64,000 nucleotides of DNA, taken from NCBI RefSeq assembly GCF_014873765.1, contig NZ_JADBGG010000001.1, positions 186,001 through 250,000 of the forward strand, written 5' to 3'. Below, piece by piece: positions 58,609 to 64,000 of the stretch (position 1 is its first letter; every line of letters begins with the position of its first letter). The position numbers and the translations under genes are program-made. Under the pieces are notes generated by a model, which worked only from the letters and a program-made list of their open reading frames with translations, was not told where the DNA came from and searched no databases. The stretch comes from Desulfomicrobium macestii. Lineage in GTDB: Bacteria; Desulfobacterota; Desulfovibrionia; Desulfovibrionales; Desulfomicrobiaceae.

Positions 58609-59475
58609 TCAGCGAAACATCTTCAGGATCTTGTCCAACTGGTCCATGACGTCCGCCTTGATGTCATCTTCGTTGACTCCGGACAGGTCCAGAACGTTGC
58701 CTTGCAGCCAATACCCGGGAGGGGAATCGGGCAGCGCGGCGTATCCGTATTCCTGGGCCAGGTGGCGGGCAAGACGCAGCAGGGAATGCAAGGTGCGGCT
58801 GTCTGTATCCAGGCTCGGTTCGGGCACATGGTAGGATGAGATGATGTCGGGCACGAAATCCGGAAAGCCCCAGCGTTTGACCATTTCCGCGCCCAGTTCA
58901 AAGTGGTCGAAGCCGTCGAAGAGTTCTTTTTCACGCGCGAAAATGTCCGGCAGCGGCTGCGAGAGGTCTTCGGCGATGAATTTTGCGAACGCATCATAGT
59001 AGTTGATGGCGAGCACCGGAATGCCGATGACGTGCATGAGGCCCAGGGGATAGATCATGCCGACCATATCCATGGGCAGGGCCTTTACCTGCGGACAATC
59101 CTGAATGAGGCGCTGCATGGTCAGCGAGACGGCCAGATTCTGTTTCCAGATGGCGCGCAGGAGCTTGTTGATTTCGGCGTTGTCGGATCTGAAAGCCGAT
59201 TCGAGGACCACATGGAAGATGATCCGACGGATTTCCTTCATGCCAAGCCGGTTGAGCGCGACTCTCAAATCCGAGATTTCCGTAATGCCGGCGAACAAGG
59301 GGGAGTTGGCGCAGGCCAGGATGGAGCCGAAGATGGCCGGATCCAGCTCGACGGTCCGGGCGAAGGCTTCCATATCGGGGCTCGGAGCGTTGATCAGTTT
59401 CATGAGTTCCATTCCGACGGCTTTCACGCCCGGAATGTTGAAGTCGATATGGGCAAGTCGTTTGACCGAGTGCAT
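58609..59475 (-). CDS. HDOD-domain signalling protein
   Basis: A 288-residue protein dominated by an HDOD domain (about 15-215), a relative of HD phosphohydrolases without the HD metal pair. It has the familiar elements DPAIFGSILACANSPLF (about 45-61), LGMKEIRRIIFHVVLESAF (about 77-95) and GFDHFELGAEMVKRWGFPDFVPDIISSYHVPE (about 188-220). HDOD proteins are adaptors in motility, c-di-GMP and other signalling. No output domain is fused. It is divergent from the PhnD-like gene, with 296 bases between. Confidence 0.88.
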   Translation of the reverse strand: MHSVKRLAHIDFNIPGVKAVGMELMKLINAPSPDMEAFARTVELDPAIFGSILACANSPLFAGITEISDLRVALNRLGMKEIRRIIFHVVLESAFRSDNAEINKLLRAIWKQNLAVSLTMQRLIQDCPQVKALPMDMVGMIYPLGLMHVIGIPVLAINYYDAFAKFIAEDLSQPLPDIFAREKELFDGFDHFELGAEMVKRWGFPDFVPDIISSYHVPEPSLDTDSRTLHSLLRLARHLAQEYGYAALPDSPPGYWLQGNVLDLSGVNEDDIKADVMDQLDKILKMFR

Positions 59476-59771: not shown

Positions 59772-60695
59772 ATGACGCTAGCGCGACTTCCGATTTTCAT
59801 ACTGCTCTTCTTCATGGCCGCCTGTACGGAAAACGAGCCCGTCGTGAAGGTGGACATGTCAAAGGTCGAAAGCGTGGCTCCGCTCGGTTCGACCTCGGCC
59901 ATCACCTATGCCTATCTGCCCCAGTATTCCCACTCCGTCTCCTTCGAACGTCATCGCCGCCTGCTCGAATACCTGCGGCACAAGACCGGGCTGTCCCTGC
60001 GACAGGTCTTTCCCAATACATTCGCCGAGCATGTCAAGATGGTGGAACGCGGCGAGATAGACATCTCCTTTACCAATCCTTTCGTTTACATATCCTTGGC
60101 CAGACTGGGCTCCGAAGCCTTCGCGCGCGTCGTGGAACCTGACGGGGGGGCCAATTTTCAGGGCCAGATCATCGTGCGCGCCGACAACCCCGCCATAAAC
60201 AGCCTTGCGGACTGCCGGGGAAAAAGAATCATTGCCGTTGACCCCAATTCCGCCGGGGGTTTTCTGTATCCTTTCGGACTGTTTTTCGATCACGGCATCA
60301 CGCAAAAGGATTTTCAGGAGGTCGCCTTTGCCACCGGCGCGGGGGGAAGGCAGGAAGCGGTGGTCCTGGCCGTGTACACGGGCGCCTATGATGTCGGCAC
60401 CATCCGCAAGGGCACGCTTGATATCGTGCGCGACAAGATCGACCTGGACCAGATCCGCGTGCTCGCGGAAAGCCGTCCGTACCCGGGGTGGGTGTACTCC
60501 GTGCGCAAGGGTTTTGATCCGGCCATCAAGGACAAGATCGCCCGGGCCCTGCTGGACCTGAGCGCAAGCCGGCACGATGATGCTCCGGTTCTTGCCGCCG
60601 CCGGAATGATCGACATCATTTCCGCCCACGACGAGGACTATGAGCCAATCAGAACCTTGATACGACGCCTTGGCCTGAATGGGGATTTTCAATGA
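59772..60695 (+). CDS. PhnD-like periplasmic-binding lipoprotein
   Basis: A 307-residue lipoprotein (FFMAAC, C18) of the phosphate/phosphonate-binding PhnD type: YLPQYSHSVSFERHRRLLEYLRHKTGLSLRQVFPNTFAEHVKMVERGEIDISFTNPFVYI (about 56-115), then NSLADCRGKRIIAVDPNSAGGFLYP (about 141-165) and DVGTIRKGTLDIV. No ABC permease or ATPase follows; the next gene is a histidine kinase whose ATG overlaps the stop as ATGA. It therefore probably acts as the ligand-binding sensor of that kinase rather than as part of a transporter. Confidence 0.88.
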   Translation: MTLARLPIFILLFFMAACTENEPVVKVDMSKVESVAPLGSTSAITYAYLPQYSHSVSFERHRRLLEYLRHKTGLSLRQVFPNTFAEHVKMVERGEIDISFTNPFVYISLARLGSEAFARVVEPDGGANFQGQIIVRADNPAINSLADCRGKRIIAVDPNSAGGFLYPFGLFFDHGITQKDFQEVAFATGAGGRQEAVVLAVYTGAYDVGTIRKGTLDIVRDKIDLDQIRVLAESRPYPGWVYSVRKGFDPAIKDKIARALLDLSASRHDDAPVLAAAGMIDIISAHDEDYEPIRTLIRRLGLNGDFQ

Positions 60696-62725
60696 AGTCC
60701 CTTTTTTCCAGACTCAAATTCGAGACCAAGCTCAATCTGGGCATCATTGCCATCGTGCTCGGCATGGCGTCGGTCCTGTTGCCCGTCGTGGCCAAGATGA
60801 CGTCTTCGGCCCTGGTGACGGAGAACAAGCTGCGCGGGGCCGCCTTGGTCGAGAGCCTGGCAGCCCGCGCCGTGAATCCGCTTTTGGCGCAGGATTATCT
60901 CGTGCTGAGAAACCTGGTCGGTGAAATCGGCGACGTGGTTTACGCCTTTGTCCAGAACGCGGACAACCGGGTCGTCACCCATTCCTTCGCCAAGGGCTAT
61001 CCCGTCGAGCTGGTGGACGCCAACCGGGTCGGCAGCAATGAGCGGGTCAATGTCCAGCTCATCGATACGGGCCAGATCTTCGTCTACGATTTTGCGGCGC
61101 CCATAATGGTCGCGGGAGAGCGCATCGGGACGGTGCGCATCGGGTTGTCCAAGTCCCGCCTGAACGCAACCACCAAGCAGTTCGTCTCGGCCCTGGCGAC
61201 CATGTTCGGCGGGGTGCTGCTCGCGGCCATGGCCCTGGGCAGCATTTTTGCCCGGACGGTGACCCGCCGTCTGGCCAAGCTTCGCGCTCATGCCGAGGAT
61301 CTGGTGACGGGGAGCCTCGACAACCTGGCCGTGTTGCCGGGTGAGCATTTCTGCTGGGAGATCATGAACTGCAAGGAGACAAGCTGTCCTGCCCACCATG
61401 ATCGCGTGCGCCGTTGCTGGCTGGTGCCGGACACGAAGTGCGCCTGTCATGCATGCATAATCGGGCCCAAGCCCTCAAGTTGCAGGGATTGTCCGGTTTT
61501 TCTGCAGAATGTGGGTGATGAAATTCAGGATCTGGCCGAATCCCTTGATTTCATGGCCTTTACCCTGCGCGACCACATTCGAGGCCTGCGTGATGCCGAG
61601 CAGACCCTGACCAACCAGCAGCGCCTTCTGTCCACGGTGCTGGACATGAATCCCGATCTCATCTCCCTGGTGGACACTCGCATGATCTACCAGACATCCA
61701 ACCGGGCTTTTGCGCAGAGCGTGGGCAAGACCGTGGCTGAGATCAGGGGGCTCAACGATTTTCACCTGTTCTCGGAAGAAGAGGCGGAGCGCAGAAATCT
61801 CGAAGGCCGGGAGGTGCTCATCACCGGTGAGCGCGTGGACAGGCAGGAACGCGTCGACGGTCCTGACGGCCGCAAGTGGTTCCATGTCGTCCAGATCCCG
61901 GTGCATGATGAATCGGGCCGCATCGTGAGCCTGCTGCGCATGGACAGGGATGTCACGGACATCAAGGAATACGAGCAGCAACTCATCCAGGCGCAGAAGA
62001 TGGAATCCATCGGCAAGCTGGCCGGAGGGGTGGCGCATGAGATCAACACCCCGCTCGGGATCATCCTCGGGTATTCCCAGCTTTTGAAGGAGGATGCGCC
62101 GCCAGACAGCCAGTTGAGCCAGGATCTGGCCGTTATCGAGAAGCAGACCAAGGTCTGCCGCAAGATTGTGGCCGACCTGCTGGGTTTCTCCCGGCAGGGG
62201 CAGACCGACAAGCGGGAGATGTGCTTCAACAACTCGGTCATGGAGTCCGTGAGTCTGGTCCGGCATTCATTCGAACTGGACCGGGTACAGATCGTGACCA
62301 GGCTTGATGACAGCTTTCCCATCATTTACGGCGACCCGGAGAAGCTCAAGCAGGTCTGGATAAACCTGCTCAACAACGCCAAGGATGCCATGCCCGAGAG
62401 CGGAGGCGTCATCGTGGTGGTCACCAAGCTCAAAACCCCGCTCGGGATCGTCACGCTCGATGTCGCCGACAGCGGCACCGGGATTGACGAAGTGTCCCTG
62501 AAAAAGATTTTCGATCCGTTCTACACCACCAAGTCGGTGGGCAAGGGGACGGGACTCGGGCTGTCCGTGTCCTTTGGCATCGTCAAGGATCACATGGGTG
62601 AGATTCGCGTGGACAGCCCGTTGCCATCGGATTTCGACCTTCCGCCCCTGCCTGAGGGGGCCGTGAAGGGTCCGGGGACGATATTTACTGTTGATATTCC
62701 CCTGGATCACGGATCCGAGTATTAG
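60692..62725 (+). CDS. Sensor histidine kinase with cysteine-rich (two-CW) insert
   Basis: A 677-residue membrane kinase with a first helix at about 15-35, a periplasmic double-Cache-like region (about 40-160), a second helix (about 168-190) and a HAMP-like segment. A cysteine-rich insert spans residues 221-267: nine Cys and two CW pairs (CWEIMNC, CPAHH, RCW, CAC, CRDC). A PAS domain follows (about 300-420), then the H-box GKLAGGVAHEINTPLGI (about 440) and an HATPase with NLLNNAKDAMPE, DSGTGI and GKGTGLGLSVS. The insert resembles the two-CW metal/redox module. It is translationally coupled to the PhnD-like gene. Confidence 0.9.
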   Translation: MKSLFSRLKFETKLNLGIIAIVLGMASVLLPVVAKMTSSALVTENKLRGAALVESLAARAVNPLLAQDYLVLRNLVGEIGDVVYAFVQNADNRVVTHSFAKGYPVELVDANRVGSNERVNVQLIDTGQIFVYDFAAPIMVAGERIGTVRIGLSKSRLNATTKQFVSALATMFGGVLLAAMALGSIFARTVTRRLAKLRAHAEDLVTGSLDNLAVLPGEHFCWEIMNCKETSCPAHHDRVRRCWLVPDTKCACHACIIGPKPSSCRDCPVFLQNVGDEIQDLAESLDFMAFTLRDHIRGLRDAEQTLTNQQRLLSTVLDMNPDLISLVDTRMIYQTSNRAFAQSVGKTVAEIRGLNDFHLFSEEEAERRNLEGREVLITGERVDRQERVDGPDGRKWFHVVQIPVHDESGRIVSLLRMDRDVTDIKEYEQQLIQAQKMESIGKLAGGVAHEINTPLGIILGYSQLLKEDAPPDSQLSQDLAVIEKQTKVCRKIVADLLGFSRQGQTDKREMCFNNSVMESVSLVRHSFELDRVQIVTRLDDSFPIIYGDPEKLKQVWINLLNNAKDAMPESGGVIVVVTKLKTPLGIVTLDVADSGTGIDEVSLKKIFDPFYTTKSVGKGTGLGLSVSFGIVKDHMGEIRVDSPLPSDFDLPPLPEGAVKGPGTIFTVDIPLDHGSEY

Positions 62726-62890
62726 GACCAATATTGACGGCCTGTGTCGCGTGCCGGGCAAGTCTCCGGCAGGCCGGGAATCAGGCGGGCACATTTCGGA
62801 CACACCCCGTGCGCACCGGCTTTGGGTGCAGGTGCACGGTCCGGGGCGTTCATGCCCCGCAGGTCAAGAATCTATCTTAAGGAGAGGTGC

Positions 62891-63280
62891 ATGGCATCGA
62901 TTATTGTTCTGGATGATGTTTCAGATGCGGGAGTCCTGGTGAAAAGGATCCTGGAGCGTCAGGGCCATCAGGTCACGGCATTCACCGAAGAGGAGGAGGC
63001 CATCCGCCACGCGGCCAAGGGCGCCACGGATCTTGCGATTCTGGACATCAAGCTGAAGAGGATGACCGGAGTCGAGGTGCTGGCGGAGATGAAGAAGTTC
63101 GCCCCCCGGATCAAGGTCATCATGCTGACGGGATATCCCACTCTGGAAACGGCACGGGAATCGCTCAAGCTGGGAGCCAGCGAGTACTGCGTCAAGCCCA
63201 TCGACAAGGAAGAACTCGAATCCAAGGTCGCGGATGTATTGAGACAGGATGTCGCCGATCTGCAGGATGAGGTTCCATGA
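62891..63280 (+). CDS. Single-domain response regulator
   Basis: A 129-residue receiver domain without an output domain: IIVLDD (4-9), phospho-acceptor in LAILDIKLKRMTGVEVL (Asp about 52), MLTGYPTLETA (about 79) and CVKPIDKEEL (about 102, Lys). GGAGAGG lies just before the ATG. It is 165 bases behind the kinase and overlaps the PEP-synthase-like gene as ATGA. It must act by protein contact; the adjacent PEP-synthase-like enzyme is a candidate target, though no direct evidence exists. Confidence 0.93.
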   Translation: MASIIVLDDVSDAGVLVKRILERQGHQVTAFTEEEEAIRHAAKGATDLAILDIKLKRMTGVEVLAEMKKFAPRIKVIMLTGYPTLETARESLKLGASEYCVKPIDKEELESKVADVLRQDVADLQDEVP

Positions 63281-64000
63281 CCGCTTCCCGTCTGCTACGG
63301 CACTGGTTCACCCGGCTGGTGGCTCCAAACAGGCTCATCCGTGAAAAATATGAGCACTTCAAGGAGCTGCTGGACAGCGACGCCAGGGCCCTGGATCTGA
63401 TCGCGGATCTCGAAGCTCCCATATACGGCTACGATCCGGCGGACGTGGCCCGGGTCAGGGTTCTGACCGGGCAGCTTGTGGAGGCTGTCCGCGCCATGAC
63501 GACCAGTCTCTACGACATGAACCCCCATGCATACGCCGATCTTCCGGGGGCGCTGGAGCGCATCGCCACGGAAATTTCGGTTCTGGTCACGCAGCCGCCG
63601 CTCGATTTCGGGCCTCCCTACGTGCTTTCCCTGGACGAAGCCGCGGATCATCCCGGCCAGGTCGGAGGAAAAGCGGCCAATCTGTCCATCGTGCGCCGCA
63701 ATGGTGTTGCGACACCGCCGGGATTTGTCATCACGGCCTCGGCGTTTGCCCGCTATCTGCGGGACAATGACCTGGAAAAGGAAATCGAGAAGCGTTTCGA
63801 GGACGTTTCCCTGTCCAACAATGACGCCATTGTCCGCGTGACCGGAGAATTGCAGGAACTGATCCTTGCGGCCAAGGTTCCCGCCGACATCGCGGACGAA
63901 ATTCTGCGCGCCGTGGAGGACCTGAATCTTGGGGACAGGCATCTGGCGGTGCGATCGAGTGCCCTGGCCGAGGACGGAGACATCACCTTTGCCGGTCAAT
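63277..64000 (+). CDS. PEP/pyruvate-binding (PEP synthase-like) enzyme, 3' end outside window
   Basis: The frame is open from ATG 63277 to the window edge (241 residues seen). A helical N-terminal domain (1-115) leads into the nucleotide-binding ATP-grasp region of pyruvate-water dikinase type: PPYVLSLDEA (about 114), GGKAANLSIVRRNGVATPPGFVITASAF (about 133-160) and AVRSSALAEDGDITFAGQ (about 224-241). These conserved residues suggest an active enzyme that makes PEP or phosphorylates another substrate. Its start is coupled to the receiver gene. The swivel and C-terminal domains lie beyond the window. It is collinear with the degenerate protein at 3349. Confidence 0.9.
   Translation, partial: MTASRLLRHWFTRLVAPNRLIREKYEHFKELLDSDARALDLIADLEAPIYGYDPADVARVRVLTGQLVEAVRAMTTSLYDMNPHAYADLPGALERIATEISVLVTQPPLDFGPPYVLSLDEAADHPGQVGGKAANLSIVRRNGVATPPGFVITASAFARYLRDNDLEKEIEKRFEDVSLSNNDAIVRVTGELQELILAAKVPADIADEILRAVEDLNLGDRHLAVRSSALAEDGDITFAGQ

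Follow-up and report, generated by a model that had tools for sequence, protein, structure and literature searches.

We analysed a 64,000-nucleotide stretch of the Desulfomicrobium macestii genome (the window; G000:C1:186001-250000), which ends in an operon encoding a PhnD-like periplasmic lipoprotein, a sensor histidine kinase (HK), a single-domain receiver (REC) and an enzyme resembling phosphoenolpyruvate (PEP) synthase (PPS). This operon is a version of the 'nitrate cluster' of Desulfovibrio, and we think it rather probable that it controls a TauE-family anion transporter. The arrest of sulfate reducers by nitrate is an open question with practical weight in souring control, and the cluster, known genetically since 2014, has a function that is unexplained in the open-access papers searched, among which only Korte et al. 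2014 and one passing mention deal with it. The analysis offers a testable wiring that consists of a sensor, a kinase, a receiver, an ATP-dependent phosphotransferase, a phosphatase and a permease.

Layout and conservation of the operon

The four genes lie on one strand (Table 1), and the coordinates given in the first-pass annotation hold exactly, including the ATGA overlaps between PhnD and HK at 60692 and between REC and PPS at 63277, and the gap of 165 bases between HK and REC. The REC gene has the Shine-Dalgarno sequence AAGGAG. The PPS-like gene runs past the window edge; read from the genome, it is whole, encoding 817 residues and ending 1.7 kb further on (L009:8731), and it retains the domain with the catalytic histidine (His485), which answers an earlier query about its completeness. 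It overlaps, again through ATGA, a gene for a DSP-PTPase phosphatase (DSP; 346 residues with a Cys-rich C-terminal part), followed by CheX of the CheY-P phosphatase family, an intrinsic terminator and icd. The terminator forms a strong hairpin, which a T-run follows (AAACCCC-GCGA-GGGGTTT-TATTTTTTG). Because it separates CheX from icd, the genes transcribed together are most likely PhnD-HK-REC-PPS-DSP-CheX. Membership of icd was ruled out by this terminator and by its occurrence as a neighbour in one genus only, CheX and icd being found at 10 loci, all of them Desulfomicrobium. Scanning the operon region for sigma-70 promoters gave one match, under the shuffle mean.

Table 1. Features of the operon and of the related genes elsewhere in the window (all positions are window positions)
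Feature	Position	Strand	Counterpart	Evidence
PhnD-like periplasmic lipoprotein, 307 aa, proposed oxyanion sensor	59772..60695	+	DVU0249	Pfam Phosphonate-bd 2.4e-62; lipobox Cys18
Sensor histidine kinase (HK), 677 aa	60692..62725	+	DVU0248	Pfam domains; H-, N-, G-boxes
Single-domain receiver (REC), 129 aa, phospho-acceptor Asp52	62891..63280	+	DVU0247	Response_reg 6.9e-24
PPS-like enzyme, first 241 codons inside window	63277..64000	+	DVU0246	PPDK_N and PEP-utilizers
TauE-family permease, 421 aa	1279..2544	+	DVU0251 position	PF01925 match at G000:C1:187591; phmmer
Small membrane protein, 219 aa	2607..3266	+	DVU0250 position	phmmer; hydrophobic stretch
Catalytically dead PPS relative, 566 aa	3349..5049	+		residue comparison; PPDK_N below cut-off

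Conservation of the neighbourhood was assessed at 60 enzyme-bearing loci, each from a different genome and together covering six family labels of Desulfovibrionales, counting same-strand partners found by tblastn within 10 kb. DSP accompanies the enzyme at 55 loci, REC at 53, PhnD at 49 and HK at 48, and all five genes are present at 46; this recurrence of the five-gene order is far beyond chance, and the co-conservation proposed earlier is borne out. One of the exceptions, L075, stops at a contig end. The enzyme without kinase and receiver, named beforehand as a sign against the coupling, does occur, yet in a minority: with the contig-end locus excluded, 6 of 59 loci have PPS-DSP only. In most loci REC and PPS overlap or are only a short gap apart, and REC stays beside PPS even where PhnD-HK is absent (L100, L104, L112), which supports the coupling of receiver and enzyme. 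An apparent loss of REC at L077, L101, L120, L122 and L109 proved to be an artefact of calling open reading frames, as tblastn finds REC there at 68-88% identity.

Outside Desulfovibrionales, too, PPS and DSP adjoin: of 80 named loci, 61 have DSP directly 3′ of PPS, and many belong to Desulfobulbaceae, Desulfobacteraceae and similar groups. Among 36 genomes picked as being without the focal enzyme, a DSP orthologue (≤1e-50) is found only in G028, directly 3′ of a diverged PPS, and in G152, at a contig end. PhnD-HK pairs without the enzyme occur at L134, L140 and L138; L140 reads PhnD-HK-REC-CheX, and at L138 the pair adjoins a PhsA-like reductase and its FeS partner. On the other side of the operon, an HDOD-domain gene (58609-59475, minus strand) is divergent from it in nearly all loci of Desulfomicrobium, and none was seen at that position in other genera.

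Domains of the signalling proteins and the enzyme

The solved structures closest to the PhnD-like protein are PhnD, PtxB and HtxB, with AioX and ArrX also among its relatives. It contains only two cysteines, the lipobox Cys18 and Cys148, of which Cys18 alone is invariant. The genome's four PhnE permease genes lie at three loci, each with its own adjoining PhnD, and the focal PhnD has no such neighbour; the idea of a missing ABC transporter for it was therefore rejected. Together with the known PhnD-fold oxyanion sensors AioX/ArrX and TtrS/ThsS (PMC5908839, PMC5408782), this supports the earlier proposal that the lipoprotein serves the kinase as its sensor. Because the STSSH stretch of PtxB aligns with SAGG(F/Y) here, phosphite or phosphonate would seem an unlikely ligand.

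The kinase contains sCache_3_2, weak HAMP, PAS, HisKA (His449) and HATPase domains according to Pfam, and its H-, N- and G-boxes are intact. Between HAMP and PAS lies a Cys-rich 'two-CW' stretch (window 61350-61500) with nine cysteines in residues 221-267, possibly a metal or redox sensor. Among the aligned proteins the receiver is conserved best, its mean column identity being 70% vs 35% in the enzyme alignment, in which paralogues are included, and residues D8, D9, D52, T80 and K102 are invariant in 27 homologues. As noted previously, it consists of the receiver domain alone in the Pfam search, and since a DNA-binding domain is absent, transcription is probably not its output. The phosphatase carries the HCX5R motif (HCRHGIGR at residue 95), with His95, Cys96 and Arg102 invariant and further invariant cysteines in its C-terminal part.

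The enzyme matches PPDK_N (PF01326, 1.1e-59) and the phospho-His swivel domain PEP-utilizers (PF00391, 9e-17), and the ATP-site residues K132, R226, E232-D233, E386, Q398 and R400 are invariant in 52 homologues, as is His485. The protein had been described as PEP/pyruvate-binding, a label that is not supported, because Pfam finds no match to the PEP-utilizers_C barrel that binds PEP and pyruvate. Given this absence, and a score of 221.8 bits on the PEP synthase equivalog TIGR01418, well under the cut-off of 739.75, the enzyme is not a PEP synthase: the ATP and phospho-His domains are kept and the barrel is replaced. In the AlphaFold model (pLDDT 86.6), about 105 additional, helical residues at the N-terminus precede a part (residues 112-525) that aligns to rifampin phosphotransferase (RPH; 5hv3, Z 36.9, root-mean-square deviation 3.2, 391 residues aligned) and to PEP synthase (Z 32.1).

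The C-terminal 268 residues, modelled separately (pLDDT 88.6), match no Pfam family across 90 members. Their fold has no confident match (best Z 5.5 with VIA-align, best E 0.024 with Foldseek), which does not in itself prove a new fold. Eight residues of this domain are invariant: H576, D577, R580, H583, E584, H705, R739 and D791. In RPH and PpsA, the third domain carries the phosphate acceptor, and by analogy the C-terminal domain may hold an acceptor here.

Transporter genes and the enzyme family

At about 20 loci, the genes directly upstream of PhnD encode a permease of the TauE family and a small membrane protein (about 200 residues). Both have homologues near the start of the window. The TauE protein matches the full-length upstream genes of other loci with phmmer E-values of 1e-122 to 1e-166, and the small protein, which has no Pfam or NCBIfam match, matches those of 23 loci at 6e-18 to 5e-67. 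The gene that follows encodes a PPS relative with a long intact open reading frame, in which the N- and C-terminal regions are kept, the ATP-site residues are lost, several polar residues that are otherwise invariant in the C-terminal domain are replaced and the phospho-His domain is absent; there is no PEP-utilizers match. This dead relative also sits beside TauE in L135, L137, L141, L143 and L082, and is thus kept in Desulfomicrobium and in other genera.

Intermediate arrangements indicate that these three genes and the five-gene module belong together. In G017 (L082), TauE-small protein-PhnD-HK-dead PPS is divergent from REC-PPS-DSP, and in G123 (L143) the same five-gene string is present with PPS-DSP at another place. 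Outside Desulfovibrionales, PPS comes directly after TauE and the small protein in L155, L159, L160 and L187, and a more distant TauE relative precedes PPS-DSP in L195, L200, L210 and L218. In several genera, the gene ahead of TauE (L143:4701-5474, L082:11606-12484, L141:5177-5977) encodes a protein that corresponds in position to the DUF169 protein Dde_0597; it has no NCBIfam match.

The association extends to the whole family. In 11 genomes, 31 of 48 genes encoding the C-terminal domain have a TauE or SLC13 transporter gene no more than 10 kb away, where uniform placement predicts 3.5; these genomes are related, so the count does not represent independent trials, but it spans seven genera and several groups of paralogues. 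The PPS paralogues of D. macestii itself adjoin SLC13 proteins, TauE, kinases and receivers, and at L081 and L083 PPS-DSP follows a gene set that reads, by eye, as a TRAP transporter. At L132:8568-17810, two tandem PPS-like paralogues follow a kinase gene and an SLC13 gene of the sodium:sulfate symporter type, and a receiver is encoded close to them; this may be a second system of transporter control that works in parallel. This is therefore a widespread PEP-synthase-related family that is without the PEP-binding part and tracks anion transporters, for which the PEP-synthase name is misleading.

With regard to the ion, a PhsA-like reductase or its FeS partner is encoded within 6 kb of TauE at 32 of 65 TauE-bearing loci, and a PhsA-like gene at 9 of 95 loci without TauE; these molybdoenzymes score 441-544 bits on the PhsA model, below its cut-off of 694. 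In D. macestii, a PhsA-like gene (88% identical) lies elsewhere in the genome. Our best guess for the ion and ligand is thiosulfate or a related sulfur oxyanion.

Probable control of an anion transporter and comparison with known systems

The nitrate cluster comprises DVU0251-DVU0245 in D. vulgaris and Dde_0597-Dde_0605 in D. alaskensis, with the five-gene part at DVU0249-DVU0245 and Dde_0601-0605 and, immediately ahead of it, a TauE-type permease and a small membrane protein (DVU0251 and DVU0250), and its loss makes Desulfovibrio nitrate-resistant in both species (Korte et al. 2014; PMC4001038). We identify the operon as a Desulfomicrobium-type, split version of this cluster, a match made on the gene order and domain content given in that paper and not on sequence comparison with the DVU genes. 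D. vulgaris with insertions in DVU0246, 0247, 0250 or 0251 grows equally with and without 100 mM nitrate, and the PtxB/PhnD-like DVU0249 shows the same effect by pooled fitness; the phosphatase mutant is still inhibited (fitness -6.04) (PMC4001038). That several components share one phenotype, the D. vulgaris phosphatase excepted, agrees with a linear pathway of activation that has the permease at its end. Mutants of D. alaskensis G20 also have a mild thiosulfate growth defect, and the authors proposed a leaky thiosulfate transporter (PMC4001038).

The following pathway can be envisaged. The lipoprotein would bind an extracytoplasmic oxyanion, for which sulfur oxyanions such as thiosulfate are the likeliest candidates, and act on HK, which is expected to phosphorylate Asp52 of the receiver, the residues required being intact. 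Judging from the tight gene coupling, the phosphorylated receiver may then bind and switch the PPS-like enzyme, in which, following the chemistry of PEP synthase and RPH, His485 would take phosphate from ATP and hand it to an acceptor held by the C-terminal domain, perhaps the permease or its small partner. DSP would oppose the enzyme and CheX, where present, would reset the receiver. The permease would thus be active only when its ion is sensed; nitrate entry through a leaky permease would then explain why losing any one of several components confers nitrate resistance.

The signalling line drawn in the first-pass annotation, in which a periplasmic sensor feeds a phosphoryl-transfer enzyme, stands in this scheme; its suggested end point does not. 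That the line regulates a PEP synthase, and with it central carbon flux, is very improbable: PPDK_N and the phospho-His domain are present and icd is next door in Desulfomicrobium, but the PEP-binding barrel is lacking, the equivalog cut-off is missed by a wide margin, icd stands behind its terminator in that single genus, and the transporter neighbours and nitrate genetics point to anion transport. There is some, rather small, chance that the enzyme phosphorylates a small molecule, such as the imported ion or a metabolite, which the DSP-like protein dephosphorylates, the two-component part merely switching it on. Its best structural matches are small-molecule enzymes, and an acceptor site could be formed by the polar residues that are invariant in the C-terminal domain, whereas paralogues beside several transporter families argue against one substrate, and a dead relative kept beside TauE is more regulator- or scaffold-like. 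We regard as improbable that the receiver acts on targets of its own, such as a distant regulator, with the enzyme just co-transcribed and the nitrate phenotype due to altered TauE expression. A longer, probably NtrC-type regulator does take the receiver's place at L096 and L092, but the receiver keeps to PPS in the manner described above, and loss of PPS alone yields the nitrate phenotype.

Control of an anion transporter, likely one for a sulfur oxyanion, is thus probably what the sensing line achieves, because the cluster match, the TauE and small-protein genes upstream elsewhere and the paralogues near anion transporters agree on it. Several observations besides the relatedness of the enrichment genomes weigh against it. 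TauE is about 57 kb from the operon in D. macestii, not directly upstream; five genomes (G005, G011, G016, G246 and G092) have PhnD, and HK where the locus was read, without PPS-DSP; and genus g12 has TauE without the module. DVU0248, the kinase counterpart, is annotated as a pseudogene. Furthermore, the G20 phosphatase mutant is nitrate-resistant (+2.08) and DVU0250 gives opposite signs in pool and isolate (PMC4001038), both of which weaken the linear pathway. A bolder extension, which we hold only tentatively and consider doubtful, is that PPS-like proteins form a new class of regulatory phosphotransferase: a receiver-switched relay from ATP through histidine to a previously undescribed acceptor domain, opposed by DSP and assisted by dead paralogues, with the whole family gating anion transporters in sulfate-reducing and related bacteria.

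Compared with the nitrate cluster of Desulfovibrio, the operon has the PhnD-like, HK, receiver, PPDK-like and DSP genes in the same order on one strand, and homologues of TauE and the small membrane protein are present in the same window. The differences are that the latter two stand apart from the operon beside the dead PPS relative, that CheX is added at the 3′ end and that HK is intact.

The sensing part resembles AioX-AioS-AioR and ArrX, in which a PhnD-fold protein with no ABC partner serves a histidine kinase (PMC5908839). There the output is a DNA-binding regulator, whereas here it is a single-domain receiver and an enzyme; moreover, AioX binds arsenite through Cys106, whereas the non-lipobox Cys148 here is not invariant. 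TtrSR and ThsSR likewise use PhnD-like sensing for a kinase, the PhnD-type kinases ThsS and TtrS responding to thiosulfate and tetrathionate, respectively (PMC5408782), and a PhsA-type reductase is often encoded close by. In those systems the PhnD-like domain is inside the kinase and the regulator activates transcription, whereas here the sensor is a separate lipoprotein and the receiver is output-less. Meanwhile, the enzyme shares ATP-grasp and swivelling phospho-His domains with RPH and PpsA, and its 268-residue C-terminal domain takes the place of the RIF-binding domain of the former and the TIM barrel of the latter.

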